From: Candidatus Saccharimonadota bacterium
GTDB lineage: Bacteria; Patescibacteriota; Saccharimonadia; Saccharimonadales; Saccharimonadaceae
DNA length: 64,000 bases
NCBI GenBank assembly: GCA_009783305.1
Contig: WRHJ01000001.1
Span: 186,001-250,000, forward strand
Reading direction: 5' to 3'
The position numbers and the translations under genes were made by a program. Each line of letters starts with the position of its first letter. Positions within the stretch are counted from its first letter, which is position 1. The notes under the pieces were generated by a model. It worked only from the letters and a program-made list of their open reading frames with translations. It did not search any database and was not told where the DNA came from. Positions 14,027 to 56,423 of the stretch are shown piece after piece.

Positions 14027-17000
14027 TTAATTCCCTACTGCTGTGATGATGATAGTGAACGAGAAGTTAGCAGGTAAGGTAGTTAAGTCCGCATTAGCTC
14101 CTACAATAAAGGTAGTCTCATTATCTGTTTGCATAGTAAATAATTGTTTAATAGTTATAGGAGAAGCTTCTTCTGGTATAGCAGCATACTTATTAGTATG
14201 AGAAATAGTAGGAACAGAAGAGACTATGGGATAGCTAGCATCAAAACCAGAAGTGATTAGTCCTGCACTATTAGTCTGAGTCTTAGGTACAGCAAAGCCA
14301 ATGGTACCTGGTGTAAGAGCAATGGGATTGACTAGAGTACCAGTAGTACTGCCATCTCCTATGGCTACTAGAGGATAAGCTATGTCCCAAGAAGAATCAT
14401 CAAGAGCTAGAGACAGACTATAGCCTAGATAACCGCTAGTGATAGTGGCAGTACATGCTCCGTTGCTGATCGCTCCATCTGGTGATGGAGTGATAGAGAT
14501 TTCTAATCCTACTGAGCAGATGTCGTCTAGAGACATAGAGATAGGCAGATCGTCATATTTGTAACCTAGCAGAGCTACTCCATCTGGCATGTAGATGGTG
14601 CCGTCTTGAGCAGTTGTGCCACCAGAATTGGCGCGAGTGCCCCGATTGGCAGTAATAGTGCCGTCAAAATTGACTGTTTTGACATCGACGTAGCCAGGCA
14701 TAGCTCCTGCCGGAACCGTCATAGTAGCAGTGGTATTATTTTGGACATTGATGTTAGTAGCCAGATTGCCATCGAAGTAGAATCTAGTACCGCTAGTGAA
14801 TCCACCGCCTGTGATGGTTACAGTATTGCCGCCTATGAAGGGGCCATGATTGGCAACGATATTGGTGATGTATATACCGCTGGTATAGATCGCTATCCTT
14901 CCCCCGCCGCCAGGAGCAAGAGTACCACTCCCACCACTAGTAGTATTGCCACCATTGGCGGTGATATTACCAGTACCAATTAATTGATTGGTAACAATGT
15001 AAATACTACCGCCGCCGCCGGCACCGGCCTGATTATTGGTGCCGGTGCCACCATTAGAAGCGATGGATCCGTTGACCGTAATGGAATCGGCGGCGATATG
15101 GATGGCGCCACCGCCACCGGTAGCTTGGCCAGTGTTGCCGGTTGTGTAATAGTGGCGTCCACCAGAGCCAAGATCAGTGGGGGTCATGAGTTCACCATAT
15201 GTAGCAGAGGCGGTACAACTTCCTTGGATAGCGCCCTGCCCGCCATACTGGCCACCGACGGCGCCATATTGAGTGCAGGCGGCGATGTTGGCACCGCTGT
15301 TGCCGGGGTTGGAGTTGATTGTCGCTACTCCTGCATAACCCTTACCTGTAGTATCGATGCTGGCACCGCTGGAAATAGAGAGACTATTAGATAAGTCAAT
15401 GTTGAGAGTGCGGAGACTAGTGGCAGTAGCAGCATTTGTGCAATGAGTTAACACAGCAGTGCCATTGAGAGTGAGGTTGGTGGCACTAACATTGACAGTG
15501 TTGAGTGTAGTGGTAAGGCCGGCACCGGAACCAGTAGTGGTGGAGGTAATAGAGCAGACCGTAGTAGTACCGTCAGTAATGGTAATGTCATCTGCTATAT
15601 CTAAGTAGGCGTTAAGAGTGTTGGTGGATGAAGTACCAGAAATAGTCAGATTAGTGGCGGTTATGGTGTCGGAAATGGTTATGACGCTGTTTAATGGGGC
15701 TCCGGAGAGATTAATGCCGTCTTGGACATCGAGATTACCATTTACGATGAGACTGTAAGCGCTACTAGTGCCACTGGTAATATTCATGCTGAAGATTTGT
15801 TGGGAAGAATTAATTGTGACAAAGTTACCTGTGGTATTTTGCATGATGAGATTGGTATCAGTATTGGCGAAGCTCCCGATAGTAAGATAGAAATAATTGG
15901 TATTGAGGATGAAGTCATCGGAAGTCGTATAGTCAAGGAAGCCAGATACATTGAGTGATGCATAATCGCCTCTAAAGTCGTAAGTGGTAAATTCGAGATC
16001 GCCGTTCAAGGCTAGGCGTCCGCCTTGGATAATAACTAGTTCGTCATATTGATAGAGAGCAGCTGGTACGGTGCTAGTAAGTGCAGTAGAGTCGGCAGCG
16101 GAGTGGTTAGCGTTATCTACGATGAAGGTGCCGTAGGTGGAAGATGAGTCGTGGAAGAAGACTGTCCCAGCCGCTCCAGCTAAAGAGCCGCCGTAGCCAC
16201 CTGCTGATCGACTGCCGGAGGCCGCTTGGTATTGGGAAGTGGCGAGTGAGTTGACCCCAGTAGTGATGGATGCTATTCTGCCGCCGCTGCCAGGACCACA
16301 ATTAAAGGTAGAGCTGCATGAACTGCCAGCACTGCCTCCATTAGCAATAAGATTACCAGCACCAGAAATTTGAGCAGCAGTAATGTAGATGCTGCCGCCG
16401 GCACCAGAAGCTGCAAAGGTAGCCGAGGCATTGCCACCGTTGGAAACGATGGACCCATTGAGAGTAATGGAGTCAGCATTAACTCGTATGGCACCACCAC
16501 CAGCGCCTATAGCGTTGGTATTACCAGTAGTATACCTAGTGCGTCCACCAGATCCAAGATCGGTGGGAGCTAAAAAATTACCATAAGGATCGGAAGTAGT
16601 GCAGCCTCCTTGTAGGCCGCCGGTACCTCCATATTGACCGCCAATGGCACCGTTGGTGCCATTACATGCACCGGTGTTGGCACCGCTGTTGCTGGGATTG
16701 GCATTAAGAGCTACGGTACCAGCGTAACCTTTGCCTGTAGCATCAATTGTGGCGCTTGAGGCGATGAGGAGGTCGCTCGCAAGATTAATGTTGAGAGTGC
16801 GGAGATTAGTGGCAGTGGCAGCATTTGTACAGTGAGTAAGGATGGCAGTTCCGTTTAGAGTGAGGTTGGTGGCACTAACATTAACTGTATTGAGTGAAGT
16901 CGTTAGTCCAGCACCAGAACCAGAAGTGGTGGAAGTAATTGAGCAAATAGTAGTGGTGCCGTCGGTGAGATCGATATCATCGGTAATGTCCAAGTAGGCG

Positions 17001-20000
17001 TTAAGAGTGTTGGTGGATGAAGTACCAGAAATGATGAGGTTGGTGGCAGTGGCGACACCGGTAACAGTCATTGTGTTACTTGATGAATTGCCAGAAATTA
17101 CAATATCATCTTGGATGTCGAGGTTGCCATTAACGGTAGTAGTAGAGGTGCTGCTGGCGATGTTCATGCTAAACATTTGTTGAGAAGAATTGATAACGAT
17201 AACATTGCCAATGGTATTTTGCATAATAAAATTAGTGTTAGTGTTGGCAAAGCTGCCGATGGTAAGATAGAAATAGTTAGTATTAAGGATGAAGTCGTCG
17301 GAAGTGGGATAGGTAAGTGAACCAGACAGAGTAAGAGCGGCGTAGTTGCCCCTAAGATCATAAGTAGTAAAATAAAGGTTTCCAGTCAGGCTAAGGCGTC
17401 CGCCTTGGATAATAACTAGTTCGTCATATTGGTAGAGAGCGGCTGGCGTAGTGCCAGTTAAAGCGGTGGAGTCAGCAGCTGAGTGGTTGGCATTATCGAT
17501 GATGAGAGTACCGTAAGTGGAGGAAGAACCACGGAAGAAGATGGTACCGGCAGCTCCAGCTAGAGCGCCGCCGTAACCTCCTGCCGATCTGCTACCGGAA
17601 ACGGCCTGGTATTGAGAATTGATAAGTGAGTTGACCCCAGTGGTGATGACTGATATTCTGCCACCGCTGCCAGGACCACAGTTGAAAGTGCCACTACACT
17701 GGTTAGCAGCATTGCCGCCGTTAGCGGTAAGGATACCGGAGCCAGAGATTTGAGTGGCGGTAATGTAGATACTGCCGCCGGCACCAGAAGCGGCGAAGGT
17801 AGCAGAAGCGGCGGCACCGTTAGAGACTATGGAACCGCTAAGGGCAACGGAATCAGCATTAATCCGTATGGCGCCACCGCCAGCTCCAGAAGCGTTGCCG
17901 TTGCTAGCGGTATATCTGGTGCGTCCGCCGGAGCCGAGATCGACTGGAGCGAGGAAGTCACCGTAGGGGTCTGAGATGGTACATCCTCCTTGTACGCCAC
18001 CGTGACCGCCGTATTGACCACCAACGGCAGCACCGGTGGCGCCATTACATGCACCGGTATTGGCGCCGCTGTTGCTGGGATTGGCATTAAGAGCTACGGT
18101 ACCAGCGTAACCTTTGCCCGTAGCATCAATTGTGGCACCACTGGCAATAGATAAATCATCAGAAAGATCGATATTGAGAGTGCGGAGATTGGTAGTAGTG
18201 GCAGCATTTGTACAGTGAGTCAGGGTAGCGACTCCGTTTAGGGTGAGGTTCGTAGCGCTAATATTGACGGTGTTGAGCGAAGTAATAAGACCAGAACCGG
18301 CACCACTAGTGGTGGCAGTGACGGAGCAAACGGTGGTTGTACCATCGGTGAGCGTGATGTCATCAGTGATGTCTAGGTAGGTATTCAGGGTATTGGTAGA
18401 TGAAGTGCCGGAGATGATGAGATTTGTAGCGGTGGTAGTACCAGTGATGGTAATATTGTTGTTTGATGAATTTCCACTGAGGATGATGTCGTCTTGGACA
18501 TCAAGGTCGCCGTTGATGGTAATGGTGGAAGTATTGCTATCAATATAAATACTGGCGAGCTGCTGAGACGAGTTAATAACGATGATGTTGTCAGTGGTAT
18601 TTTGCATGATGAGATTGGTGTTGGTGTTGACGAAACTACCAACAGTTAAGGAGAAGTTGTTAGTATTGAGTATAAAATCATCAGATGACGTGTAAGAAAA
18701 GGAACCGGAAAGATTGAGGATGGAGTAGTCACCTTGAAAATTGTAAGATGCAACTTCTAAATTGCCAGTGAGGTTGATACGGCCACCGTTAGTGATGGTT
18801 AAGTCGTCGAATTGATAAGGAGAGCTGATACCTAGGCTAGTGCGAGCAGATGAGTCAGCAGCGGTGCGATTGGTATTGGAGATAGTAAGATTGCCGTAAG
18901 TAGTGGAAGAGTTTTTCACGTAGATTGTCCCGGCTGCTCCGGCGATAGCGCCAGCGTAACCGCCAGCCGACCTGCTGCCAGAAACGGCTTGGTACTGGGA
19001 AGTGGTGAGCGAGTTGGTGCCTGTGGTAACGACGGAGATTCTTCCGCCGCTGCCAGGGCCACAGTTGAAGGTACCACTACATGAGCCGCCAGCGCTGCCA
19101 CCGTTGGCGGTGAGATTACCGGCACCAGAAATTTGAGCAGCAGTAATGTAGATGCTGCCACCGGCACCAGAAGCTGCAAAGGTAGCCGAGGCATCATTAC
19201 CGTTGGAGACGATGGAACCGCCGAGAGTGATGGAACCAGCGTTAACCCGTATGACACCGCCACCAGCGCCGACAGCACTACTGTTGCCAGTAGTGTATCT
19301 AGCACGCCCACCAGATCCGAGATCAGTGGGGGCGAGGGAATTGCCATAAGGGTCGGAGACGACGCAGCCTCCTTGCAAACCACCGTGACCTCCATATTGA
19401 CCGCCAATGGCACCGTTGGTGCCACTACATGCACCGGTATTGGCACCGCTGTTGCTGGGGTTAGCATTAAGAGCTGCGGTACCAGCAAACCCTTTGCCGT
19501 TAACGTTGATACTGGCTCCACTGACGATGGATAATAACCCACCAATATCCAGATTTATAGTGTTGGGAGTGACAGTGGCGGCAGTATTAGTTGGAGAAGT
19601 GATTTGGCTGGTGTCCTCCAGATAAATGTCTGCAGTAGTAATGAGCTTAGTAACAATAGGACCGCCACCTTGCAATGTACCAGTGTTAACGGACGAGATA
19701 GTGAGGACAGTAGCGCCAGTAAGGGTGAGGGAGTTGATGGTCAAGTTTGTGCTACTGGGAATAGATAAAGTGACATTAGCAGAAGGGATCAGTACATCAT
19801 CGGAAGCAATCGGTACCAAACCAGTGTCCCAGTTTGCAGCAGTATTCCAGTTGCTATCAGTACCGCCTAACCAAGTAATAGTGGGAATAGGTAAGGCACT
19901 GACACCTGTAGGAGATTGCCGAGCTACAATGATACCTACTACTGCAGTAAGAAGAAGCGAGAAGACAAAGGTAAGGACAAGAGAGAGTGAATTTCTACCC

Positions 20001-20032
20001 CCCCCTACTTTTTGACCTAACGACAAGCTCAT
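14027..20032 (-). CDS. Giant repeat-containing surface protein (2001 aa), adhesin-like
   Basis: A signal peptide/anchor spans about residues 16-38. A G8-like or strand-loop-strand segment follows (TWLGGTDSNWNTAANW, about 52-70). Three full tandem units of about 460 residues and a shortened fourth come next. Each unit has a Gly-rich core (NANPSNSGANTGAC, then GGQYGGHGG-type and GSGGRISV motifs) and Thr/Asn/Ser-rich beta-helix-like stretches. Near the C-terminus is an IPT/TIG-type Ig fold (PFIGGNTVTITGGGF, about residue 1720). There is no LPXTG motif or C-terminal anchor. Composition and architecture fit an extracellular adhesin, perhaps for host contact, but this is inference. An extended -10 lies 9 nt before the ATG. 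Confidence 0.85.
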   Translation of the reverse strand: MSLSLGQKVGGGRNSLSLVLTFVFSLLLTAVVGIIVARQSPTGVSALPIPTITWLGGTDSNWNTAANWDTGLVPIASDDVLIPSANVTLSIPSSTNLTINSLTLTGATVLTISSVNTGTLQGGGPIVTKLITTADIYLEDTSQITSPTNTAATVTPNTINLDIGGLLSIVSGASINVNGKGFAGTAALNANPSNSGANTGACSGTNGAIGGQYGGHGGLQGGCVVSDPYGNSLAPTDLGSGGRARYTTGNSSAVGAGGGVIRVNAGSITLGGSIVSNGNDASATFAASGAGGSIYITAAQISGAGNLTANGGSAGGSCSGTFNCGPGSGGRISVVTTGTNSLTTSQYQAVSGSRSAGGYAGAIAGAAGTIYVKNSSTTYGNLTISNTNRTAADSSARTSLGISSPYQFDDLTITNGGRINLTGNLEVASYNFQGDYSILNLSGSFSYTSSDDFILNTNNFSLTVGSFVNTNTNLIMQNTTDNIIVINSSQQLASIYIDSNTSTITINGDLDVQDDIILSGNSSNNNITITGTTTATNLIISGTSSTNTLNTYLDITDDITLTDGTTTVCSVTATTSGAGSGLITSLNTVNISATNLTLNGVATLTHCTNAATTTNLRTLNIDLSDDLSIASGATIDATGKGYAGTVALNANPSNSGANTGACNGATGAAVGGQYGGHGGVQGGCTISDPYGDFLAPVDLGSGGRTRYTASNGNASGAGGGAIRINADSVALSGSIVSNGAAASATFAASGAGGSIYITATQISGSGILTANGGNAANQCSGTFNCGPGSGGRISVITTGVNSLINSQYQAVSGSRSAGGYGGALAGAAGTIFFRGSSSTYGTLIIDNANHSAADSTALTGTTPAALYQYDELVIIQGGRLSLTGNLYFTTYDLRGNYAALTLSGSLTYPTSDDFILNTNYFYLTIGSFANTNTNFIMQNTIGNVIVINSSQQMFSMNIASSTSTTTVNGNLDIQDDIVISGNSSSNTMTVTGVATATNLIISGTSSTNTLNAYLDITDDIDLTDGTTTICSITSTTSGSGAGLTTSLNTVNVSATNLTLNGTAILTHCTNAATATNLRTLNINLASDLLIASSATIDATGKGYAGTVALNANPSNSGANTGACNGTNGAIGGQYGGTGGLQGGCTTSDPYGNFLAPTDLGSGGRTRYTTGNTNAIGAGGGAIRVNADSITLNGSIVSNGGNASATFAASGAGGSIYITAAQISGAGNLIANGGSAGSSCSSTFNCGPGSGGRIASITTGVNSLATSQYQAASGSRSAGGYGGSLAGAAGTVFFHDSSSTYGTFIVDNANHSAADSTALTSTVPAALYQYDELVIIQGGRLALNGDLEFTTYDFRGDYASLNVSGFLDYTTSDDFILNTNYFYLTIGSFANTDTNLIMQNTTGNFVTINSSQQIFSMNITSGTSSAYSLIVNGNLDVQDGINLSGAPLNSVITISDTITATNLTISGTSSTNTLNAYLDIADDITITDGTTTVCSITSTTTGSGAGLTTTLNTVNVSATNLTLNGTAVLTHCTNAATATSLRTLNIDLSNSLSISSGASIDTTGKGYAGVATINSNPGNSGANIAACTQYGAVGGQYGGQGAIQGSCTASATYGELMTPTDLGSGGRHYYTTGNTGQATGGGGAIHIAADSITVNGSIASNGGTGTNNQAGAGGGGSIYIVTNQLIGTGNITANGGNTTSGGSGTLAPGGGGRIAIYTSGIYITNIVANHGPFIGGNTVTITGGGFTSGTRFYFDGNLATNINVQNNTTATMTVPAGAMPGYVDVKTVNFDGTITANRGTRANSGGTTAQDGTIYMPDGVALLGYKYDDLPISMSLDDICSVGLEISITPSPDGAISNGACTATITSGYLGYSLSLALDDSSWDIAYPLVAIGDGSTTGTLVNPIALTPGTIGFAVPKTQTNSAGLITSGFDASYPIVSSVPTISHTNKYAAIPEEASPITIKQLFTMQTDNETTFIVGANADLTTLPANFSFTIIITAVGN
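14870..19560 (-). repeat. Long tandem repeats (about 1.38 kb) inside the adhesin gene
   Basis: The conserved GKGYAG/NANPSNSGANTG segment recurs near 19490, 18110, 16730 and 15340, a period of about 1382-1388 bp. Three full units and a truncated fourth are present. Nucleotide identity is high over long stretches. The segment around 16720-16745 and 18100-18127 is nearly identical, which suggests recent duplication or recombination and a risk of assembly collapse. Confidence 0.85.
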
Positions 20033-36062: not shown

Positions 36063-37937
36063 ATGAACGCAAACGAAGTAAGACAGAAATATTTAGATTT
36101 TATGAAAAAGAAGGGGCATGTGGAAATTGCCCCGGCGCCATTGGTGCTGGAGGGTGATCCGACGACGCTGTTTACTGGTTCGGGGATGCAACCGCTGATG
36201 CCGTATTTGTTGGGTGAGCCGCATCCAGACGGCAAGCGCTTGGTAGATTCGCAGCCTTGCATGCGACTGCAAGATATTGAAGATGTAGGCGATCCGCGGC
36301 ATACGACAGTTTTTGAGATGCTGGGCAACTGGTCGTTGGGTGATTATTTCAAAGAGGAGCAGATTCGAAATTTCTTTGAGTTTTTGACAGCTGAGATTGG
36401 ACTGGATCCGCGGAAGATTTATGTGACGTGTTTTGCTGGGGATGAAAAATATGGCATACCGCGCGACGATGAGGCAGCGGAAATTTGGAAACAACTGTTC
36501 GCCGAAACAGATATAAAAGCGGAAATAACTGAAATTGGAACGGCGGAAAATGGCGCCAAGCGCGGCATTGCTGAGGGCGAACGAATTTTCTTCTACAATG
36601 ACAAGGAAAACTGGTGGTCGCGCGGCGGCGGAATTGAAAGTACGCCAATCGGCGATCCATGCGGACCAGATAGCGAGGTGTTTTATGATTTTGGCGAGGA
36701 AAATCAGGATGAGGCTAAATATGGCAAATCGCATCCAGCGTCGGATGGAGCACGGTTCATGGAGATCGGCAACCAAGTGTTTATGCAATATCGCCGGCTG
36801 CCGGATGGAAGTTTTGAAGAGCTAGCAAATAAAAATGTGGATTTCGGTGGCGGGCTGGAACGGATTACAGCGGCGAGCTTGGATAGTTATGATGTGTTTA
36901 GAATTTCCTTGCTGAAGCCGATTGTAGATAAATTGGCGCAGTTGAGCCACAAAGATTACGAAAGTAATACTTCGGATATGCGGATTATCGCTGATCATTT
37001 GCGCGGGGCTTATTTGCTGTCAGCGCAAGGCTTGACGCCGAGCAATAAGCAGCAAGGTTATGCGCTGAGGCGATTGATCCGCCGGGCGATTTTGAAGGCG
37101 CTACATCTGGGCATTGAGCAGAATTTCTTGCAGGAAGTAATACCGATTGTGGCGGAAAATTATAGTTCCCTGCCGGCAGAGATTTTGACGCATCGCGATC
37201 AAGTAGAATTAATTTTGGAAAAAGAAGAAAAGGTATTTAGGCAAACCTTGAATCGCGGTATTCGCGAATTGCATAAACTGAAGGCGCAGGGGTTGACTGG
37301 CGTGGAGCTGTTCAAGTTGCAGGATACGTATGGTTTCCCATTGGAATTGTCAGTTGAGGAGGCGTATCGACAAAATATTGATTTGAGTAAAAACTGGAGG
37401 GCTGAGTTTGACGAAGAACTGCGGAAGCAGCGCGAGCGCAGCCAGACTGCTAGCAAGGGCATGTTCAAAGGCGGTTTGGAAGACCAGGGCGAGCAGACGG
37501 TAAAATATCACACCACGGCGCATTTAGTATTGGCAGCGATGCAAAAATTGATTGATCCGAATATTGATCAAAAAGGTGCGAATATCACGCATGAACGGCT
37601 GCGGTTCGATTTTGGCATCGAACGCAAGTTGGAACCGGAGGAAATTGCAAAAATCGAAAAACAAGTGAATGAGTGGATAGAAGCAGATTTGCCGGTGACG
37701 CATGCGGAATATGATAAAGATTACGCGCGAAATGTGTTGAAGGCGCATGGACAGTTTTGGGATCGATATCCGGATAAGGTAACTGTGTATATGGTTGGTG
37801 ATGAAAAAAATCCGGTGAGCGTGGAGATTTGCGGCGGGCCGCACGTGGAGCGTACTGGCGGATTGGGCAAGTTCAGAATTGTGAAGGAAGAATCTTCGGC
37901 AAGGGGCGTGCGTCGAATCAAAGCCATACTTGAATAA
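36063..37937 (+). CDS. alaS: Alanyl-tRNA synthetase lacking the C-Ala domain
   Basis: The product is 624 residues; most bacterial AlaRS are about 870-880. The class II catalytic core is complete (GSGMQPLMPYL, RLQDIEDVG, FEMLGNWSLGDYF). The editing domain has its zinc ligands in HTTAH (about residue 480) and CGGPH (about 600). The protein ends shortly after the editing domain (ARGVRRIKAILE), so the C-Ala/DHHA1 domain used for tRNA binding and dimerisation is absent. The stop is clean and followed by an independent promoter, so this is a natural short form rather than a frameshift. Short AlaRS forms are known in some CPR bacteria. Confidence 0.95.
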   Translation: MNANEVRQKYLDFMKKKGHVEIAPAPLVLEGDPTTLFTGSGMQPLMPYLLGEPHPDGKRLVDSQPCMRLQDIEDVGDPRHTTVFEMLGNWSLGDYFKEEQIRNFFEFLTAEIGLDPRKIYVTCFAGDEKYGIPRDDEAAEIWKQLFAETDIKAEITEIGTAENGAKRGIAEGERIFFYNDKENWWSRGGGIESTPIGDPCGPDSEVFYDFGEENQDEAKYGKSHPASDGARFMEIGNQVFMQYRRLPDGSFEELANKNVDFGGGLERITAASLDSYDVFRISLLKPIVDKLAQLSHKDYESNTSDMRIIADHLRGAYLLSAQGLTPSNKQQGYALRRLIRRAILKALHLGIEQNFLQEVIPIVAENYSSLPAEILTHRDQVELILEKEEKVFRQTLNRGIRELHKLKAQGLTGVELFKLQDTYGFPLELSVEEAYRQNIDLSKNWRAEFDEELRKQRERSQTASKGMFKGGLEDQGEQTVKYHTTAHLVLAAMQKLIDPNIDQKGANITHERLRFDFGIERKLEPEEIAKIEKQVNEWIEADLPVTHAEYDKDYARNVLKAHGQFWDRYPDKVTVYMVGDEKNPVSVEICGGPHVERTGGLGKFRIVKEESSARGVRRIKAILE

Positions 37938-45717: not shown

Positions 45718-45740
45718 GCGCTTAAAGCGAGTTATTGTGC

Positions 45741-45746
45741 TACAAT
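45741..45746 (+). promoter_or_regulatory. Envelope cluster -10 box, leaderless
   Basis: TGC-TACAAT with 6 nt to the ATG at 45753. This argues against the upstream in-frame TTG (45735) and ATG (45747). Confidence 0.65.
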
Positions 45747-45752
45747 ATGGTT

Positions 45753-47444
45753 ATGAATAAAGATGTGATTTATATTGAACCAGAGGATGATATTACTGAC
45801 ATTTTAACTGGAGTCAAAGGCAGCAAGGCAAAAGTGGTAGCCCTGGTGCCGCCGAAAAAAGCAGGCGTGCTAAAAAGCGCCGTGAATTTCAAACTGTTGG
45901 CACGGACAGCAAGAGAAACTGAAAAGGCAGTGGTATTGGTCACGTCTGATAGCGCGCTATTAAAGTTAGCGGCAACGGCCGGAATACCGGTGGCAAAAAA
46001 TTTACAGACTCGGCCGGAGGTGCCGACCAATGCTGTACCTGCGGAAGAAACTGAGCCAGAAAGTGACGTGATTGACGGCGAGGAAGCGGCAGCGGTGACA
46101 AAGTCTGAGAAAAAAGCGATCAAAGTGGATGAAGAGTCGGTGGTGGAATCGGTTGATTTAAGTGAAGATGGCGAAGCAGCTACCGAAGAGGAAGCGGATG
46201 ACAAAAAGAAATCAAAAAAGAAGAAGTCGGCGGTGCCAAATTTTGATAAGTATCGAAAGTTTATCATTATGGGGATTGTCGGGGTAGTGCTGATTGTCGG
46301 TCTTTTGCTTTGGGCGCTGGTGTTTGCGCCGGCGGCAACGATTATGGTGACTGTGCGCACGACGGCGCGGTCGTTTTCGGAGGCGGTGTCGTTCACGACT
46401 AATGAAGCTAAAGAAGATTCGTTGGGCGGGGTGTTCTTGTTGGATGAGCAAAAAGTGACGAAACAGTCTTCGGTGGAATTTGAAGCGACGGGGGAAGTGG
46501 ATAAAGGGAACAAAGCTACAGGGACGTTAACCCTGAAGCGAACGACGGTGAATTCGATACCTTTAAGCGCTATAACTGTGGCAAAAGGTACTAAATTTAC
46601 TCAAGGCGGGCGAGTATACATCACGACTGAGGCGACAGAATTGGCGAGACTAGACAGCACTAACACGAGTTGTACTTCTACTTGTTCGTTTACCGTGCCC
46701 GGAGTAGATACGGCCACCGTGAAAGTTGAAGCCGAAGTTCCAGGCACGGAATCCAATACTACTTCTTCATTAGGCTGGTCAGGGGCCGGCAGCGGGTATT
46801 CTATTTCGGGTGCAAACGTGAGTGGGGGGACGAGTAAGATGGTGAGAGTAGTGTCGGCGACAGATGTGGCAAAGGCAAAAGAAAAGTTGGAATCGGTCAG
46901 TGCGGCGGATGGCCGGGCGGAACTGCTGGCGGACTTCCCGGTGGGATTGTTGCCAATTGCAGTGAGCTTCAGATCGGAGACAGGCGATCCGGTGTCAACA
47001 CCGGCAGTTGGTGAAGAGGTGGGCGAAGACGTGACGCCAAAGTTAGTGGCGAAGACGACCTTTGTAATGTATGGCGTGGATCGGGTAAGGATTTCTGAAT
47101 ATATTGAGGAGCGAACCAAGCAAGCTATTAGCGGCGAGGCTGGCCAGATGGTGCATTCGACAGGAGTGAGTGATAACGCAGATGAGAATAAGGCGTTTAT
47201 AGAATCATTTCGGGAATTAGGTGAGGGATTTACGGGCAGATTAAAATCAGTGGCGAAGGTGGGTCCGGAAGTGACTGACCAGATGGTGATGGATAAATCT
47301 TTGGGGCGGAAGATTGGCGAAGTGCAGAGTTTATTGAAATCAATTAACGGAGTGAGCAAGGTGCAGGTTGAGACCCCGTTCTTTTGGGTGAGTTCGATAC
47401 CGGATGATATTAATAAAGTGACAGTTGAAATCACGGTAGAGTAA
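45753..47444 (+). CDS. CPR-type membrane protein with Rossmann-like N-domain and extracellular beta domains
   Basis: About 563 residues. The N-terminal cytoplasmic domain (1-95) has alternating strands and helices with VVALVPPKKAGVL and AVVLVTSDSALLKLA. A long acidic/Lys linker follows, then a TM (about 172-196) and an extracellular beta-rich part with GTLTLKRTT, VAKGTKFTQGG and a Cys pair (TSCTSTCSF). Proteins of this layout are common in CPR genomes and are sometimes annotated as baseplate J-like. The function is unknown; membrane/wall assembly is a guess from the neighbouring hydrolases. The following fusion gene starts 1 nt after its stop. Confidence 0.75.
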   Translation: MNKDVIYIEPEDDITDILTGVKGSKAKVVALVPPKKAGVLKSAVNFKLLARTARETEKAVVLVTSDSALLKLAATAGIPVAKNLQTRPEVPTNAVPAEETEPESDVIDGEEAAAVTKSEKKAIKVDEESVVESVDLSEDGEAATEEEADDKKKSKKKKSAVPNFDKYRKFIIMGIVGVVLIVGLLLWALVFAPAATIMVTVRTTARSFSEAVSFTTNEAKEDSLGGVFLLDEQKVTKQSSVEFEATGEVDKGNKATGTLTLKRTTVNSIPLSAITVAKGTKFTQGGRVYITTEATELARLDSTNTSCTSTCSFTVPGVDTATVKVEAEVPGTESNTTSSLGWSGAGSGYSISGANVSGGTSKMVRVVSATDVAKAKEKLESVSAADGRAELLADFPVGLLPIAVSFRSETGDPVSTPAVGEEVGEDVTPKLVAKTTFVMYGVDRVRISEYIEERTKQAISGEAGQMVHSTGVSDNADENKAFIESFRELGEGFTGRLKSVAKVGPEVTDQMVMDKSLGRKIGEVQSLLKSINGVSKVQVETPFFWVSSIPDDINKVTVEITVE

Positions 47445-47445
47445 G

Positions 47446-49224
47446 ATGAAATTAGTTGCTTTAGACGTTGGTGAGAAACGGATTGGGGTCGCAACAGCAG
47501 ATAGTTCAGTGAAGATTGCGGTGCCGCGCGGTACGGTAGATGTGGATGGTGACGAATTGATGATGCTTGCGAAGATTGTGCAAGATGAAGGCGCGAAACA
47601 CCTGATAATTGGATTGCCGCGTAATGCGCAAGGCGAAGAGACGGCGCAATCACGAGCAGTGCGGGCGTTTGCAGCGGCGTTGCAAGGATATTTTGTGAAG
47701 CAAAAAATGGAACGGCCGTTGGTAAAATTTCAGGATGAGTCTTTGACTTCGGTGATGGCAGAAGAGCGATTGGGTTCGAAAAAGCGCAAGAAACGCCGCC
47801 AAAAAGCGGATGTAGATAGCGAGGCGGCAACGATTATTTTGCAAGATTTTTTGAATAGTTTTGGTGGAGAGCAGTCTTTTCCTGTTGAGGCGAAAAAAAA
47901 GCCCAAAACAAAGAATAAGGTGAAGCATAAGGTTTTTAAAGTTTTTGCTATGGTCGTCGGGCTGCTGATTGTGGCGTCAATAGCGGCGATTACGTGGTAC
48001 AAAGATATGCTGAGACCGGTGGATCCGGATAATTGCCAAAGCGAGAGATGTGAGACGCAGAGTTTTGTGGTGCTGGAAGGGGAATCAGTGGAGAGAGTGG
48101 CGAATAGTTTGGAAACTCAAGGGTTAATTAGATCGGAGCTGGCTTTTCGAATATTCCTGAAGCTGGAGAGGAAAGAAAGCGATCTGAAGGCGGGGGTATA
48201 TACATTAAACAGTGGGATGGAAACAGCAGAGGTGGCAAGAGTGCTGAGCGAGGGGTCGAAAGTGCGCAGTTTCAAAATAGAAGTGTTGCCGGGCGAGAGT
48301 TTGAATAGGGTGAAACAGACTCTGATTGGGATAGGATACGATAGGGTGGCCGTGGATGAGGCATTTGCGCGGGATTATCAGCATGAATTTTGGGGTGCGG
48401 GGATGAAGGTGGAGAACTTTTTGTATGCTGGGAGCTATGATGTAGGGGTAGATCAAAAAGTGGAAGATTTTGTGCAAATAATGCTGGGACGACTGGCGGG
48501 AATAAGCGTGGAGTATAGGGTACGGGAAAAATTTGCTGAAATAGAGCTGGACTATTGGCAAGGTTTTGATCTGGCGGCGCGGGTGAGAGTGGAGGTGGGA
48601 GGGGTGTCAGAGCGGGCGATGAAGGAAACTGCTCGAGCGGCGGAATTAATAAGGGCGGGTGATACCAATGGGAAGACAGGGGTGGCGGTGGATTTTTATG
48701 CGTTGATGGGGACAGCCTATTGGGAGAGTCACTTGCCTTTTGTGTCGGCAGGAGATTATGCGGGATGGCTGGAAGTGTATGGAGAGTTAGCGCAGGAAGT
48801 GGGGACGAAATACGGGATTCCTTATGAGGCAATTTTGGCGCAAAGCATATTGGAGTCGAGTTGGGGGCGGAGTAAGCTGGCCTATAAGTATTTTAACTTT
48901 TTTGGGATCAAGTATGCGAATATGCCGAAAGATCCAAGTGTGGCGCCGAGCGGCAGCGTGAATATGCAGACTTGGGAAGAATATGAGCCGGGAGTGTCTA
49001 CAACTATACAGGCAGATTTTGCAGTTTGGGATTCTAAGAGTAAAGGATTTCATGCTTATGGAGCTTGGATTACCGGGCAAAGCCGATATAAAGAAGCGCT
49101 GCGTTATCCGCATGATCCGATCCGCTATATCGAGGAGTTAAAGAGGGCTGGTTATGCGACTGATGCTAATTATGTGGAAATACTGGTGAAGATAATTGAA
49201 GCTTTGCAGGCGGTAAAGGATTAA
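47446..49224 (+). CDS. Fusion: RuvX resolvase - TM - degenerate MltG - GH73 glucosaminidase
   Basis: The 592-residue protein joins three modules. Residues 1-135 are RuvX/YqgF, with conserved acidic sites in ALDVGEKRIGVA, LIIGLPRNAQGEE, FQDESLTSVMAEERL and DVDSEAATIIL. A Lys-rich linker and TM (about 165-185) follow. Residues about 200-430 resemble MltG/YceG (LysM-like VLEGESVERVANSLE, VENFLYAGSYDV), but the catalytic Glu of the ASI-EKE motif appears as Arg (AARVRVEVGG). Residues about 440-590 are a GH73-type glucosaminidase (AILAQSILESSWGRSKLAYKYFNFFG). The topology allows a cytoplasmic resolvase and an outside wall hydrolase. ruvX and mltG are adjacent in many bacteria, so gene fusion is plausible. 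Confidence 0.85.
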   Translation: MKLVALDVGEKRIGVATADSSVKIAVPRGTVDVDGDELMMLAKIVQDEGAKHLIIGLPRNAQGEETAQSRAVRAFAAALQGYFVKQKMERPLVKFQDESLTSVMAEERLGSKKRKKRRQKADVDSEAATIILQDFLNSFGGEQSFPVEAKKKPKTKNKVKHKVFKVFAMVVGLLIVASIAAITWYKDMLRPVDPDNCQSERCETQSFVVLEGESVERVANSLETQGLIRSELAFRIFLKLERKESDLKAGVYTLNSGMETAEVARVLSEGSKVRSFKIEVLPGESLNRVKQTLIGIGYDRVAVDEAFARDYQHEFWGAGMKVENFLYAGSYDVGVDQKVEDFVQIMLGRLAGISVEYRVREKFAEIELDYWQGFDLAARVRVEVGGVSERAMKETARAAELIRAGDTNGKTGVAVDFYALMGTAYWESHLPFVSAGDYAGWLEVYGELAQEVGTKYGIPYEAILAQSILESSWGRSKLAYKYFNFFGIKYANMPKDPSVAPSGSVNMQTWEEYEPGVSTTIQADFAVWDSKSKGFHAYGAWITGQSRYKEALRYPHDPIRYIEELKRAGYATDANYVEILVKIIEALQAVKD

Positions 49225-49269: not shown

Positions 49270-50424
49270 ATGAAAGATAAGAAAAGCAGAAATTCGAAGA
49301 TTCGGGGGTTTATGGGACGGTTTTTCCCTTACATCGCGCTATTTGCGATTATTTTGACGGTGATGATTGTGGGCTCACAAGATGAGCAGAAAATGTCTAT
49401 ATCGAGCACGGTGCTGAACGTGATCAATGATACTAGCTTTAAGGTGACGACGGATCAGCTGTCGGAATCATTTATTGTGGCGGAAACGGCGAATATTTTT
49501 AATCTGCCATCAGCGAACTCGATTGGCGAAAACTTTGTGTCGATTGCAATACGCTACACGATGACGGGCGGGGTTGACAGCGGTATTATTGAAAAACCCA
49601 ACATTATTGATACTTCAAATTTGTCGCGAGGCATTTTAACTTACATAGTAGAAGCAGGCGATAACTTGCCGGCCATTGCGGCGCGGTTCGGTTTGAGTTC
49701 AACGCAAATTCGCTGGAGCAACAATATGAAGAACGAGACCATTGCAATTGGTCAGAAATTATTCTTGCCGTCGGTGCCGGGCATTTTATATACAGTGCGA
49801 AACGGCGATACGCTTGAAGGCATTGCGGAAAAATATCAGTCTAATGCGTCTCAGATCAAGACGCTAAATGATTTGGAAATTTCGGGATTGGTGGTGGGGC
49901 AGACAATCATTTTACCGAACGGGATACTGCCGGAAAAGGAACGTCCAGAATACGTACCACCGGCACCGGCGCCAACTTATACATTTAACTTGTCGGATTC
50001 TGGAGTGCGTCATAATATGCGCGAGATTGGCAGCTATAGCTATTGGCGCTATACGGTGACTCCAGGTGCCAGGTGGATGGGGAATCCGTCAAGCGAGGGG
50101 CAATGTACGTGGTTTGCATGGTGGTGGCGCCGTAATTATATGCCGGAAAATTATTGGTTGCCGACCGGCGTGATTGGCAATGCGCGCGACTGGGTGACGA
50201 GGTTGCGTTCGAGATATTTGGTAAATCAGTATCCGGCCTATGGTGCAGTAGTTCAGACTCGCACTAGCAACTGGGGGCACGTGGCTGTAGTGACAAATGT
50301 GGTTGAGGGTGAGTATATTTTGATACAAGAAATGAACTGGAATTATCAACCGTATAGGGTATACGAATCGCGCATTTATTGGGCAGATGCTCTAAAGTTT
50401 GTGTATATCCATGGAAGGTATTAA
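49270..50424 (+). CDS. Membrane-anchored LysM-CHAP peptidoglycan hydrolase
   Basis: The 384-residue protein has a TM (about 18-38), two LysM repeats (YIVEAGDNLPAIAARFG, about 117-160; YTVRNGDTLEGIAEKY, about 168-212), a Pro linker and a CHAP domain. CHAP residues are Cys in EGQCTWFAWWWRR (about 280), His in NWGHVAVV (about 338) and Glu/Asn in IQEMNWN. CHAP enzymes are amidases or endopeptidases that cut peptidoglycan. It lies between the GH73 fusion and obg, and its stop TAA shares one base with the obg ATG. Confidence 0.92.
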   Translation: MKDKKSRNSKIRGFMGRFFPYIALFAIILTVMIVGSQDEQKMSISSTVLNVINDTSFKVTTDQLSESFIVAETANIFNLPSANSIGENFVSIAIRYTMTGGVDSGIIEKPNIIDTSNLSRGILTYIVEAGDNLPAIAARFGLSSTQIRWSNNMKNETIAIGQKLFLPSVPGILYTVRNGDTLEGIAEKYQSNASQIKTLNDLEISGLVVGQTIILPNGILPEKERPEYVPPAPAPTYTFNLSDSGVRHNMREIGSYSYWRYTVTPGARWMGNPSSEGQCTWFAWWWRRNYMPENYWLPTGVIGNARDWVTRLRSRYLVNQYPAYGAVVQTRTSNWGHVAVVTNVVEGEYILIQEMNWNYQPYRVYESRIYWADALKFVYIHGRY

Positions 50425-51839
50425 TGTTCGTTGACACCGCGAAGATTTTTGTTCAAGCCGGAAAAGGTGGGGATGGCGCAGTGTCGTTTCGGCATGAGAT
50501 TTATGTGCCAAAGGGCGGACCAGATGGGGGGGATGGCGGCAAGGGCGGCGATGTGATATTCAGGGCCAGTAAAGATTGTAATACGCTGATTGATTTTCGG
50601 TATCAGCCAGAGTTGAGGGCGAAAGATGGTAAAAATGGTGCGAAACGACAGGCGGCGGGGCGAAGCGGCGAGGATCTGATTGTGGAAGTGCCGATTGGCA
50701 CAGTCGTGAAGCGTGATGGCGAAATAGTAGCAGATTTGGTGGAAGATGGTCAGGAAGAGATTGCGGCGAAGGGTGGTGATGGCGGACGTGGCAATGCACA
50801 TTTTAAGTCATCGACGCGACAAGCTCCGAAGATTGCGGAAGTGGGCGAGCCAGGCGAGAGCTTTGAAGCAGAATTAGAATTGAAACTGCTGGCGGATGTG
50901 GGATTGATTGGTTTTCCTAATGCTGGCAAGTCGACGTTTTTGTCGGTAGTGAGTAATGCTACACCGAAGGTAGCGGATTATCCATTTACGACTTTGACGC
51001 CGAGTTTGGGTGTAGCGACAATTGACGAGCAAGATATTTTGATTGCGGATATTCCCGGGTTGATTGAGGGAGCGTCCGAGGGTAAAGGTTTGGGAGATAA
51101 GTTTTTGCGGCACGTGGAACGCAATCAGATTTTATTGCATCTGATTGATGTATATGTCGACGATGCGGGCGAGGCGTACCGGACGATTCGTAAAGAACTG
51201 GCAAATTATTCGCACGATTTGGCGCAGCGACCAGAAATTGTGGCCCTGACCAAAGTTGAGGGGGTAGATCAAGAAATTGTTGATATGCAGATGGCGAGTA
51301 TTTTGAGCGTGAATCCGGAAGCGGAGATTTATGCGATTTCTGCGTCGGCACATGATGGATTGACTGAACTGCTACGAGCATTGAAGGAGAAACTAGCTCA
51401 AATTCATCTTTCAGAAGACACTTTGCGTGCGCGCCCGTCTTCACGGGGCGCAGGCGCTAGCGTTCGGCTGGAAGTAGATGGCCAGCGGCCATCTCTTCCA
51501 CAGCTTCTTCAAGATGAACTTGAGCCAGCTTCTCGCCCCTCTTCCACAGCTTCTTCAGAACTACCATCTGAGTCTGCTGATTTACCGGTTATTACTTTGA
51601 CTAAAAACAAAGTTGGGAAGTCATTTAAGGTGACGAGAGAAGATGATAAGTTCGTGGTGACCGGGGAGAAGATTGAGAAGTTTGCGCGGAAGACAGACTA
51701 CGGAAATTATGATTCGTTGAATCGCTTGCGGGATATTATGAAGAAGATGGGGATTCGGGGCGAATTGACAAATCAGGGTGCCCTGCCCGATTCAATGATT
51801 GAGATCGCTGGACACGAATTTACTTTGATGGAGCAATAA
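50424..51839 (+). CDS. obg: GTPase Obg with OCT domain and an in-frame palindromic insertion
   Basis: 471 residues from the ATG at 50424 (GGAAGG 5 nt upstream). The Gly-rich Obg fold (1-158) is followed by a G domain with GFPNAGKST (about 166), DIPGLIEGASEGKG (about 212) and LTKVEGVD (about 275, in place of NKxD). The C-terminal OCT domain is at about 400-471 (KVTREDDKFVVTGEKIEKF). Obg assists 50S assembly and stringent responses. Between G and OCT domains, about 50 residues (ARPSSRGAGASVRLEVD and Ser/Pro-rich sequence) are encoded by a stretch with two strong hairpins and a 19-bp direct repeat. This looks inserted. Confidence 0.95.
   Translation: MFVDTAKIFVQAGKGGDGAVSFRHEIYVPKGGPDGGDGGKGGDVIFRASKDCNTLIDFRYQPELRAKDGKNGAKRQAAGRSGEDLIVEVPIGTVVKRDGEIVADLVEDGQEEIAAKGGDGGRGNAHFKSSTRQAPKIAEVGEPGESFEAELELKLLADVGLIGFPNAGKSTFLSVVSNATPKVADYPFTTLTPSLGVATIDEQDILIADIPGLIEGASEGKGLGDKFLRHVERNQILLHLIDVYVDDAGEAYRTIRKELANYSHDLAQRPEIVALTKVEGVDQEIVDMQMASILSVNPEAEIYAISASAHDGLTELLRALKEKLAQIHLSEDTLRARPSSRGAGASVRLEVDGQRPSLPQLLQDELEPASRPSSTASSELPSESADLPVITLTKNKVGKSFKVTREDDKFVVTGEKIEKFARKTDYGNYDSLNRLRDIMKKMGIRGELTNQGALPDSMIEIAGHEFTLMEQ
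51431..51557. repeat. Palindromic/direct-repeat insertion inside obg
   Basis: Hairpin 1 (51431-51451) is GCGCCCGT / ACGGGGCGC. Hairpin 2 (51470-51499) is GGAAG-T-AGATGGCC, loop AGC, GGCCATCTCTTCC, a 13-bp stem with one bulge. The direct repeat CTCTTCCACAGCTTCTTCA occurs at 51493-51511 and 51539-51557, a period of 46 bp. Confidence 0.75.
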
Positions 51840-52447: not shown

Positions 52448-55400
52448 TTATTTTTTGAACAACAAGCTTGCAGAGTGGGTAGATTTGGCGGTATCTTTGG
52501 CAGTGGCCGTAGCTTTGATGATATGATCTCCCGCTTTGGTGTCTTGTCCTTTAATCTGGATATCGCAAGCACCGTTTTTGGGATTATCGCAAGTAGCTAC
52601 TAGCTTTTCGTCAATGAAGATTTCGATCTTGGCAATACCAGCCGAGTGAGAGGAGTTGATGGTAATCTTGGTGTTTCCGTTGGCCTTGAGGGTTTCGCCG
52701 TCTTTGATGCCGGAGATACTGACACTGGGCGGAACAGGCGAGGTGGTGCCACCGCCATTGCCGCCGCCAGTGTTGCCGCCGCCAGTGTTGGTCTTGGCAA
52801 TGATGAAGCTAACGTTCTGCTGGGCAGTCTTTTTACTATCGCCAGAGTGAGCGACTTTTATAACAACTGTATGGATACCATCGTTAACGTTAGGTGCGGT
52901 TACAGTAAAGGTTTGGGAGGCGCTGGCGCCAGGAGTTAGGGAGAGCGATTTAGATGATGGAGAAAAGGCGAATCCTTTGGTGCTGTTGTTGGACATGGCT
53001 GCAGTAATGTTGAAGTTGGCGTTGGTGCAATCTTGGCTGTCGTTATTTTTGACTGTAATGACATAGTCAATCTTGCCGCCTGGTTCGGCTTTACCGCTGG
53101 TGGGATTGACAGTAACGGTAGGATTATTGCGGACGCAAACTACTACAGGAGCAGAAACTGTGAAGCTGACATTTTGAGTGACCGAAGTACTATTGGCAGA
53201 ATTCGTGACCTTGAAGGACATGGTGTAAGTCCCATTGGCTATATTGGAAGGTGAAGTGACAGAGAAGGTTTGGGAGGAACTGGTAGCACCCGGATTGATA
53301 GACCAGCTTTTGGATGTAGGCGAGAAGTTGAAGCCAGACGCGCTGGAGCTAGGAGTGACAATATAGGTAATACTTTCACAATCTTGGCTATCGTTGCTCT
53401 TGACGGTGACTGAGTAGTCAATCTTGCCGCCAGGAGTGACTTTGCCGCTGGTGGGACTGATGGTGATGGTCGGGTTGTTGCGGGTGCAAACCTGGACTGG
53501 CTTTACTGCTGTATATGTCACACTCTGGGTGACTGCGTTGCTATTGGCGCTATTTGTAACCCTAAAGGTTATGGTGTAGTTGCCGTTCGCTAGACTTGAC
53601 GGCGAGGTTACAGAGAAGGTTTGGGAGGCGCTGGTGGCTCCTGGCGCTAAGGTCCAAGCTTTGCTAGTCGGAGAGTAGGTGAAACCAGAGGTACCAGAGC
53701 TAGGAGTGACCGTGTAGGTAGCGCTGGCACAAGCTGTGCTATCGTTATTCTTTACAGTAACTGCGTAGTCTACCTTGACGCCCGGGGCGGCACTGCCGCT
53801 GGTTGGGTTAATGGTGATAGTCGGGTTGTTACGGGTACAAACTGGAGCCGCCCCAGTAACAGTGTATGTTACGTTTTGATTCACTACGTTGCTATTGGCA
53901 TTGTTGGTAACTTTGAAAGTTATCGCATAGTTACCGGCAGCCAGACTTGACGGCGAGGTTACAGAGAAGGTTTGGGAGGCGCTGGTGGCTCCTGGCGCTA
54001 AGGTCCAAGCTTTGCTAGTCGGAGAGTAGGTGAAACCAGAAGTCGTGGAACTGGGATTTACCGTAAAGGTGGCGTTGGCGCATCCTGAACTATCGTTATT
54101 CTTGACCGTTACAGCGTAATCGATTTTACCGCCTGAGGTAGCGCTGCCGCTGGTTGGGTTGATGCTAATAGTTGGGTTGTTACGGGTACAAACTGGAGCT
54201 GGTCGTTCTACTGTATACGTCACATTTTGCGTGACTGCGTTGCTATTGGCGCTATTTGTAACTCTAAATGTAATCGTATAGTTCCCGTTAGCTATGGTAG
54301 AGGGCGAGGTGATAGAAAATGACTGAGAGGTGCCGGTGCTGCCTGGCGTAAGGGTCCAAGCTCGAGAAGTTGGAGAGAAAGTGAAGCCAGAAGTACTGGC
54401 CGAGGGCGTAACGGTATAGGTTGCGCTAGCACAGTCTTGGCTATCGTTGCTTTTGACGGTTACAGCGTAACTGATGGCCTTGCCTGGCTCGGCTTTGCCG
54501 CTGGCAGGGTTGATGGAAATGGTTGGGTTGTTACGGGTACAAACTGGGGTGGGTGGAGGAGTGACTGAATTGCCAAGTTTGATATTGAGCGTGGCCTTAT
54601 CTTGCGTGTAAGAAGTAACTTCAATAGAAAGATTGGGGTTGTTCGGATCAGTGAAGACCATGCCGGGACGAAGTCCGGTGGCACAGCGGATACAGACCTC
54701 GGCGCCAGGTAGAGTGCCAAGCGCGAAGAGATAGGAGAGAGAGTAGGTGGTACCAGAACCGACGCGGACAAAGACGCCGTTATAGTCGTCTTTGTAGGTG
54801 GCGGAAATACCGCTTTCTGCGCCAATCGGTTTGCGGAGTTCAATGTAGTAATAGTATGGCGCGGAACCATTGGGGCTGGTGGTGCTGGAAGGTCGAGTGA
54901 CGTTGTATGGCATTTGGATGCGGATAAGCTGGGTGCCGCTAGAAGCTGCCTCTGACGGATAAAGGTCATAAGTGCCGCTGGCGGTAACGGTTTTGACATT
55001 AGCGGCCGGTATCCAGCCGAGTTTAGATTTGTTGGTAGCACTGAAGTGAGGTGCAGGAGTACCGCGAGACGAGCTGTTACCCATGGCATCGTAGTAATCG
55101 CCGTATTCTATGAAGGAAGTACAATCCGTACCAGGATTGCCGAAGACGGTGGTTTGGCCACCTACTTTGCAGGTGTAACTGCGGGCAGCGTGGGATAGTC
55201 CCAAGTTATGTCCCATTTCGTGGACGGTGACCAATGCGCTAGTAGCGCCAATCTGCCAGATACTGGATCCACCGACTGAACCGCGGCCGGACCAACCGCA
55301 ACCGGATGAACCATTAATCATGACAATGACGTGCTGATAGCCGGTGATATTGAAGCCATCGGCGGCAGCGGCGGCTCTGCCTTGAGTATGCCAGCCAGAA

Positions 55401-56395
55401 TAAGATGATTCGCAAGTGCCGTTGCTGGCATTGGTGACTTCGTAGATGCCGAAGACGTCGGCGGATTGGCTGGGATTGTTTTTGCCGGCGAGATAGATTT
55501 TGCCGTAGGATGCTTCACGATACCATTGGTCGCTAGCTTCAAGGGTTTTGAGGGCGTTTGCCTTGGTAAAAGTGGATGATATGGCAGCACCCTTAATGTT
55601 AACTAGGATAACTGCAACCTGGCGTTTAGTACCAGTGGGTTCAAGGGCGGCGGCGGCGGTGACGACGAAGTTGTCGGTGTCGGCAATGATATTGGGCACG
55701 ACCAGGTCGCCTAGCTCATAACCGGTGATTTGTACTTTGTCGTTGGCTTGATAGTTGACTGGTATGGATTTGGGGAGGAAGACTTGTTTAACTTCACCGG
55801 AGGGGAGATTTAGGAAAAGATCAGTGGAGTGGTAAGTGTTGCCATCTTCGTCCTCTTCTTCTTCACCGCAGTCAATGATGTCCAGTGTTCCGGTTAACGT
55901 AACGGGACGCTCGATGCTTTCGACGTCATAGAATAATTCGCTTTGAACATCTGGGGGCAAGGCGATGCGCAGAAATTCATCTGGATTTTCCCGCATTAAT
56001 CTTTCAATATACTGTTGCCTTTGGGCGGCAGTTTCGCGCATGCTGGTGAGAGTGGCGCCTTTGGCAATATAGTCGGAGTTTTGGTGGGCGATGCCATCTC
56101 CCAAGAGTTGTGACGTTAAGTTTTCGCTCATGCCGATAACGACTTCTTGGCTGGCGGTGTCGACGCTTACGGTGGGGGTGAGCCAATCGAATTCAGAAAC
56201 GCCAATCCAAAAGCCTACGACTAATAGACAGGTAGCGACGATGCCATAAAGGGAGCGTTTGGGCCATTTTTTCTCGCGAATATAGCCGCTGATGGCGCCG
56301 TTTCTTTTGACAACTACGACCTCGTCGCTGTTGTGTGTATCTTTGACTACTTGATCACCGTCAAGTTGTTTGCGTTTGCGTTTGCGTTTGAACAC
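52448..56395 (-). CDS. Membrane-anchored M11-like metalloprotease with five beta repeats
   Basis: The start is GTG at 56395 with TTGGAGG upstream, about 1315 residues. A Lys/Arg-rich N-terminus and TM (about 45-65) are followed by an OB-like region. A metzincin domain has HEMGHNLGLSH (about residue 395) and Met-turn YDAMGNSS (about 435), resembling gametolysin (M11). Five tandem modules of about 117 residues follow, each opening CTRNNPTI.I.P.SG (NEW3-like), then a Gly/Thr linker and a C-terminal Ig-like domain (PPSVSISGIKDGETLKANG). It should be an extracellular protease, perhaps acting on host surface proteins, but substrate is unknown. Confidence 0.85.
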   Translation of the reverse strand: MFKRKRKRKQLDGDQVVKDTHNSDEVVVVKRNGAISGYIREKKWPKRSLYGIVATCLLVVGFWIGVSEFDWLTPTVSVDTASQEVVIGMSENLTSQLLGDGIAHQNSDYIAKGATLTSMRETAAQRQQYIERLMRENPDEFLRIALPPDVQSELFYDVESIERPVTLTGTLDIIDCGEEEEDEDGNTYHSTDLFLNLPSGEVKQVFLPKSIPVNYQANDKVQITGYELGDLVVPNIIADTDNFVVTAAAALEPTGTKRQVAVILVNIKGAAISSTFTKANALKTLEASDQWYREASYGKIYLAGKNNPSQSADVFGIYEVTNASNGTCESSYSGWHTQGRAAAAADGFNITGYQHVIVMINGSSGCGWSGRGSVGGSSIWQIGATSALVTVHEMGHNLGLSHAARSYTCKVGGQTTVFGNPGTDCTSFIEYGDYYDAMGNSSSRGTPAPHFSATNKSKLGWIPAANVKTVTASGTYDLYPSEAASSGTQLIRIQMPYNVTRPSSTTSPNGSAPYYYYIELRKPIGAESGISATYKDDYNGVFVRVGSGTTYSLSYLFALGTLPGAEVCIRCATGLRPGMVFTDPNNPNLSIEVTSYTQDKATLNIKLGNSVTPPPTPVCTRNNPTISINPASGKAEPGKAISYAVTVKSNDSQDCASATYTVTPSASTSGFTFSPTSRAWTLTPGSTGTSQSFSITSPSTIANGNYTITFRVTNSANSNAVTQNVTYTVERPAPVCTRNNPTISINPTSGSATSGGKIDYAVTVKNNDSSGCANATFTVNPSSTTSGFTYSPTSKAWTLAPGATSASQTFSVTSPSSLAAGNYAITFKVTNNANSNVVNQNVTYTVTGAAPVCTRNNPTITINPTSGSAAPGVKVDYAVTVKNNDSTACASATYTVTPSSGTSGFTYSPTSKAWTLAPGATSASQTFSVTSPSSLANGNYTITFRVTNSANSNAVTQSVTYTAVKPVQVCTRNNPTITISPTSGKVTPGGKIDYSVTVKSNDSQDCESITYIVTPSSSASGFNFSPTSKSWSINPGATSSSQTFSVTSPSNIANGTYTMSFKVTNSANSTSVTQNVSFTVSAPVVVCVRNNPTVTVNPTSGKAEPGGKIDYVITVKNNDSQDCTNANFNITAAMSNNSTKGFAFSPSSKSLSLTPGASASQTFTVTAPNVNDGIHTVVIKVAHSGDSKKTAQQNVSFIIAKTNTGGGNTGGGNGGGTTSPVPPSVSISGIKDGETLKANGNTKITINSSHSAGIAKIEIFIDEKLVATCDNPKNGACDIQIKGQDTKAGDHIIKATATAKDTAKSTHSASLLFKK
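52790..54550 (-). repeat. Five tandem 351-bp modules in the metalloprotease gene
   Basis: The CTRNNPT-encoding segment recurs about every 350 bp (near 54540, 54190, 53840, 53490, 53140). Neighbouring copies share long identical stretches, for example around 53600-53660 and 53950-54010. Confidence 0.85.
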
Positions 56396-56423
56396 AATAA
56401 GTACCTCCAAGTTGATTAAGCTT

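Follow-up and report, generated by a model that had tools for sequence, protein, structure and literature searches.

The membrane enzyme MltG normally cuts back cell-wall strands as they are synthesized. Its catalysis requires E218 in Escherichia coli and E242 in Bacillus subtilis, and even as an inactive protein, E. coli MltG decreases the transpeptidation carried out by class A PBPs (PMC8135044). The essential task of MltG is debated: in Enterococcus faecalis, the LysM domain is essential, whereas the whole YceG domain is dispensable for growth, even though YceG cuts nascent strands (PMC12288455). In Staphylococcus aureus, strand release has been ascribed to a GH73 enzyme, the membrane-associated SagB, which is held by SpdC and has been proposed to release nascent strands (PMC10581084). 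Furthermore, VirB1-like wall hydrolases have been described near virB4 in Patescibacteria (PMC12102498).

Here, we analyzed a window of 64,000 nucleotides (the whole stretch considered, from contig WRHJ01000001.1) of a Candidatus Saccharimonadota genome, which comprises 788 kb in 7 contigs with an estimated completeness of 98.5%. A single plus-strand frame of 592 codons with zero internal stops (Table 1) encodes RuvX, a membrane helix, an MltG portion, and a GH73 glucosaminidase, so that the presence of all 4 parts in one frame, as put forward in the original prediction, is confirmed by the uninterrupted frame, Pfam, and hydropathy. A frameshift or missed stop, for which the original prediction had proposed a check, is unlikely, since the frame is free of stops and the same RuvX-MltG fusion recurs in many independent assemblies. 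The RuvX domain matches its profiles almost completely (PF03652, 111.2 bits with a cut-off of 29.2, E 6e-32, profile positions 1-133 of 134; TIGR00250, 77.5 bits with a cut-off of 43.25), and its acidic residues, described correctly as intact, lie in invariant alignment columns. The sole hydrophobic segment spans approximately residues 161-186, with a Kyte-Doolittle maximum of 2.5 at residues 164-182, and is the only region exceeding 1.6. Because a lysine-rich stretch precedes this helix, RuvX should, according to the positive-inside rule, be located in the cytoplasm and the remainder of the protein outside.

Table 1. Coordinates of the fusion gene, its domains, and the neighboring genes within the window.
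Feature	Position	Strand	Evidence
Upstream conserved membrane protein, same locus, MNKDVIYIEPEDDITDIL... family	45735..47444	+	Syntenic in G231, G087, G281
Fusion gene RuvX - TM - MltG LysM-like - truncated MltG catalytic remnant - GH73, 592 aa	47446..49224	+	Open frame, Pfam
RuvX/YqgF domain, residues 1-137; D7, D97/E98, D124 kept	47446..47856	+	Pfam, TIGR00250, conserved columns
Lys-rich linker (positive-inside), residues 138-160	47857..47925	+	Sequence; no start codon with Shine-Dalgarno match
Single transmembrane helix, residues ~162-184	47929..47997	+	Kyte-Doolittle
MltG LysM-like domain, residues 205-292, intact	48058..48321	+	4iiw match, AF2, identity to congeners
MltG catalytic remnant, residues 293-392, eroded; E383 at 48592-48594	48322..48621	+	YceG profile, identity, AF2
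Junction/linker, residues 393-440, no homology found	48622..48765	+	AF2; base composition unremarkable
GH73 glucosaminidase domain, residues 447-588	48784..49209	+	Pfam, FlgJ 5dn5 alignment, Foldseek
LysM-LysM-CHAP protein, downstream	49270..50424	+	Pfam; syntenic in relatives, directly 3' of mltG
ObgE GTPase	50379..51839	+	Pfam; syntenic

The order of the locus (membrane protein, fusion gene, LysM-CHAP protein, ObgE) is the same in 3 relatives (G231, G087, and G281), in which RuvX and MltG are either fused or encoded by 2 abutting genes. The syntenic place of ObgE shows that this order is ancestral, and since the locus is otherwise syntenic, the 3' half of mltG was replaced by GH73 in place. 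Genome-wide searches revealed the fusion gene as the genome's only MltG, GH73, and RuvX; no second MltG, no second GH73, and no SLT domain was found in the genome, nor was the lost C-terminal half of MltG found elsewhere in it.

The MltG portion has been preserved to very different degrees. Its LysM-like domain matches residues 41-127 of Lmo1499 (4iiw), is confident in the AF2 model, and shows only slight decay, with 34-44% identity to congeners compared to 41-53% among congeners. For the catalytic remnant, the corresponding values are 21-26% and 50-62%, while RuvX, with 52-65% identity to congeners, exhibits no such decay; relative to G231, identity amounts to 65% for RuvX, 42% for LysM, and 21% for the remnant. 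The YceG/MltG match (PF02618, residues 208-390, E 3e-17) exceeds the Pfam cut-off and covers only profile positions 2-172 of 275, compared to 1/2 to 273/275 in the 42 other MltG-positive congeners, and the TIGR00247 score of 53.7 bits lies below the cut-off of 103.4, as opposed to what would be expected for a complete MltG catalytic domain. MltG sequence after approximately residue 392 is missing, and with it 24 of the 45 residues that are invariant in 17 relatives, all of them located C-terminal to the catalytic Glu. Furthermore, the stretch containing E383 (residues 380-386) has a pLDDT below 50; the model of an intact congener MltG folds confidently onto 4iiw, 2r1f, and 8yq7. With its C-terminal catalytic half missing and the remaining half eroded, the MltG lytic-transglycosylase module is, judging from its sequence, dead.

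The original prediction had also described MltG as degenerate, but attributed this to an Arg in place of the catalytic Glu, which is ruled out by the alignment. The E. coli MltG chain in PDB entry 2r1f contains the motif IIEKET, the second Glu of which is presumably E218. In saccharibacterial MltGs, the motif reads LASIVQKEA, with the first Glu changed to Gln and the second invariant, and Gln occupies the first-Glu column in the solved MltG 8yoa as well. The 592-aa protein has LAARVRVEV at this position, placing R381 in the column that holds Gln in nearly all relatives and E383 in the invariant catalytic column, that of E218. The catalytic Glu is thus kept, but its neighborhood is eroded. Regarding the column 2 positions before the catalytic residue (E216 in E. 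coli), Gln is found in nearly all aligned relatives, and Glu is kept in some other orders. Of the features read from the DNA in the original prediction, the frame, domains, helix, and RuvX acidic residues therefore hold and the Arg-for-Glu substitution does not; the degeneration of MltG is real, and the idea of an MltG part that serves just for binding or anchoring, with GH73 doing the cutting, is supported, although not through the residue that had been named.

The GH73 domain is well supported by an almost full-length profile match (PF01832, 106.5 bits with a cut-off of 30.2, E 2e-30, profile positions 2-122 of 123), and both acidic residues are present, with E470 and E512 aligning with E184 and E223 of FlgJ (5dn5). 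The domain is modeled confidently by AF2, and Foldseek matches it to FlgJ, Auto, and AtlA, while pLDDT values are below 50 across the linker (residues 406-433) and the LysM/remnant part shows no confident packing against GH73 in the model (pTM 0.49). The closest GH73 domains, with 42-50% identity, stem from other genera and belong to proteins encoded beside virB4-like genes and dnaN-recF, usually together with CHAP. While the 592-aa protein shares the GH73 domain and the equivalents of E470 and E512 with these type IV secretion system (T4SS)-locus proteins and with FlgJ/AtlA-type enzymes, it differs in lacking a CHAP or NlpC partner and in carrying GH73 on MltG at the ruvX-obg locus. The same T4SS locus is present in the source genome (VirB4 81% identical), where the hydrolase in the corresponding position combines a phage-tail lysozyme domain (PF18013) with GDSL and a weak NlpC/P60 match and has no GH73; it is located at L196:9584-11425 (G000:C2). 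Since PF18013 and GDSL stand where other genera have GH73-CHAP next to virB4 and recF, the catalytic domains of T4SS-locus hydrolases seem to be swapped often. In a GH73 tree, T4SS-locus domains were nearest by path and by identity, with the query on a long branch whose exact place is unsupported; a transfer of a T4SS-type GH73 onto MltG would be plausible.

It is GH73 in place of the MltG catalytic half that is unusual here, as the parts themselves are known. MltG is near-universal in the family, being detected in 380 of 394 genomes, a sample of species representatives from a larger family, and among these 380 the present protein is the single outlier (E 4e-18; next weakest 1e-35). The catalytic half is replaced in 1 of the 43 MltG-bearing genomes of the genus, and GH73 was found on MltG in none of 45 congeners. 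The original prediction had proposed searching related genomes for the same domain order, and the full order was not encountered in these congeners, was not recognizable by MltG score among the 394 family genomes, and was not found in the best 80 GTDB contigs, for which query coverage stops at or before residue 428; RuvX-MltG alone is common. A scan of genome contigs for the triple architecture in a single protein likewise gave no match, and no MltG parts were detected by Pfam on 10 scanned GH73 ORFs of the order. Three nearly complete family genomes (G233, G151, and G216) have no detectable MltG, and G233 has a GH73 protein.

Compared to MltG/YceG proteins (PF02618; E. coli 2r1f, Lmo1499 4iiw), the 592-aa protein thus retains the locus, TM helix, LysM-like domain, first catalytic part, and Glu column (E383), while the C-terminal catalytic half is replaced by GH73 and the remnant eroded. 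We consider it slightly favored (roughly 55%) that this is an MltG whose lytic-transglycosylase module has been exchanged for GH73, with the remaining chassis holding the new domain in place to cut nascent glycan. The TM helix and LysM-like domain would serve as the membrane chassis that keeps GH73 near the membrane, where it would cut nascent glycan strands and thereby set their length or release them; we infer this strand-release role as well as the activity and substrate of the domain. Hydrolysis would then do the "terminase" job of MltG and produce reducing GlcNAc ends instead of 1,6-anhydroMurNAc. A functional parallel could be drawn to the membrane-bound SagB of S. aureus, likewise a membrane-tethered GH73 outside the cell (here as predicted) with a proposed role in strand release; however, the anchor in our case consists of an MltG chassis, which includes a LysM-like domain, joined to a cytoplasmic RuvX, whose tethering would be a by-product of fusing 2 adjacent genes, with no function of its own being needed. 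GH73 may not be the sole glycan cutter, because a PF18013 glycosidase with another fold is encoded in the T4SS locus and the search covered part of the lytic-transglycosylase families.

GH73 could also act in another role, such as cell separation or attack on a host wall. The assumption of a general autolysin, used for daughter-cell separation or for locally opening the cell's own or a host's wall, with the MltG remnant a mere anchor and MltG function lost, appears unlikely, though far from negligible. It would fit with the kinship to T4SS-locus hydrolases, whose role lies outside strand termination, with the VirB1-like hydrolases near virB4 in Patescibacteria (PMC12102498), and with the phage-type lysozyme domain that the T4SS-position hydrolase of the source genome carries instead of GH73. 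However, GH73 sits at mltG's own locus on the TM helix and LysM of MltG, of all MltG parts LysM has been preserved best, and MltG is otherwise found almost throughout the family, all of which argue against a general autolysin. That RuvX-MltG was joined to a foreign GH73 through an assembly or binning error is scarcely credible, even though the architecture is known from a single assembly: the join is in frame with synteny on both sides as in relatives, GC and GC3 of all segments resemble those of the neighbors, the missing MltG half does not turn up elsewhere in the genome, and the erosion of the remnant 5' of the join would not be expected from a chimera.

With respect to RuvX, the fusion to MltG is ordinary in relatives, carries less weight by itself, and looks like a fusion of neighboring genes. 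Saccharibacterial RuvX-MltG fusions (e.g., G231, JAITNW010000004.1, and ruminant-gut MAGs) share the RuvX-TM-MltG order and the locus with the 592-aa protein but keep the full MltG and have no GH73. Fused frames occur in most sampled members of the large related genus g3 and in 2 of the g1 genomes; the congener found to carry one is G231. ORFs longer than 400 aa were the source of 82 of the 116 distinct RuvX sequences gathered, a set that was collected by similarity and is therefore biased to fused forms. In unfused congeners, ruvX and mltG abut or overlap, mostly with -26 to +20 bp between them, so that one small indel or lost stop is enough for a fusion, and the fused state amounts to 2 changes on a tree that left out G231. 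Selection for a membrane-bound RuvX, whose rRNA or Holliday-junction processing would then take place at the membrane or be linked to wall synthesis, would be in line with the recurrence in g3 and g1 and with S. pneumoniae MltG, which also has a cytoplasmic domain, its function being unknown (PMC8135044). Considering the adjacency of the genes in most congeners and the mere 2 changes, we nevertheless regard it as very unlikely, and a literature search for a link between RuvX/YqgF and MltG yielded nothing relevant, as did one on MltG in Saccharibacteria. It is also quite unlikely that internal initiation or proteolysis replaces the full-length product by 2 proteins, one a free RuvX and the other a GH73 protein in the membrane: a GTG at codon 159 (47920) is located just before the TM helix and near the start site of separate mltG genes, but neither this codon (dG -0.2 compared to -3.0 at the main start) nor ATG 169 has a Shine-Dalgarno match. 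RuvX therefore probably keeps its normal housekeeping role in the cytoplasm as a passenger, and its tethering is probably incidental. From the interpretation in the original prediction, an MltG part that anchors while GH73 cuts can be retained, while the coupling of nucleic-acid processing to wall remodeling finds little support, as a neighbor-gene fusion explains RuvX-MltG.

Whether the replacement represents a natural exchange of terminase chemistry, in which a glucosaminidase took over from a lytic transglycosylase while the locus and the membrane/LysM chassis stayed the same, is a broader question, which we would answer in the affirmative only tentatively and at somewhat less than even odds. 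If true, the essential contribution of MltG would lie in positioning, and SagB-type and MltG-type cutters would be interchangeable; a chassis that was kept while the cutter changed would be a natural test of the notion that position matters and chemistry does not. Under such a swap, anhydroMurNAc ends would be scarce in the cell wall or absent from it. That the hybrid occurs in only one genome counts against the swap.

Additional features of the window include a minus-strand ORF of 2001 aa (14027-20032), which may encode a giant surface protein and has no match to Pfam at E 1e-5, and a protein of 1320 aa (52448-56410, minus strand) with weak metallopeptidase (M10/M12B) matches and many Ig-like domains, which may be a secreted adhesin or protease. 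Furthermore, a short alanyl-tRNA synthetase of 624 aa is encoded at 36063-37937 (plus strand), with matches to the catalytic and SAD domains and none to the C-terminal domain.
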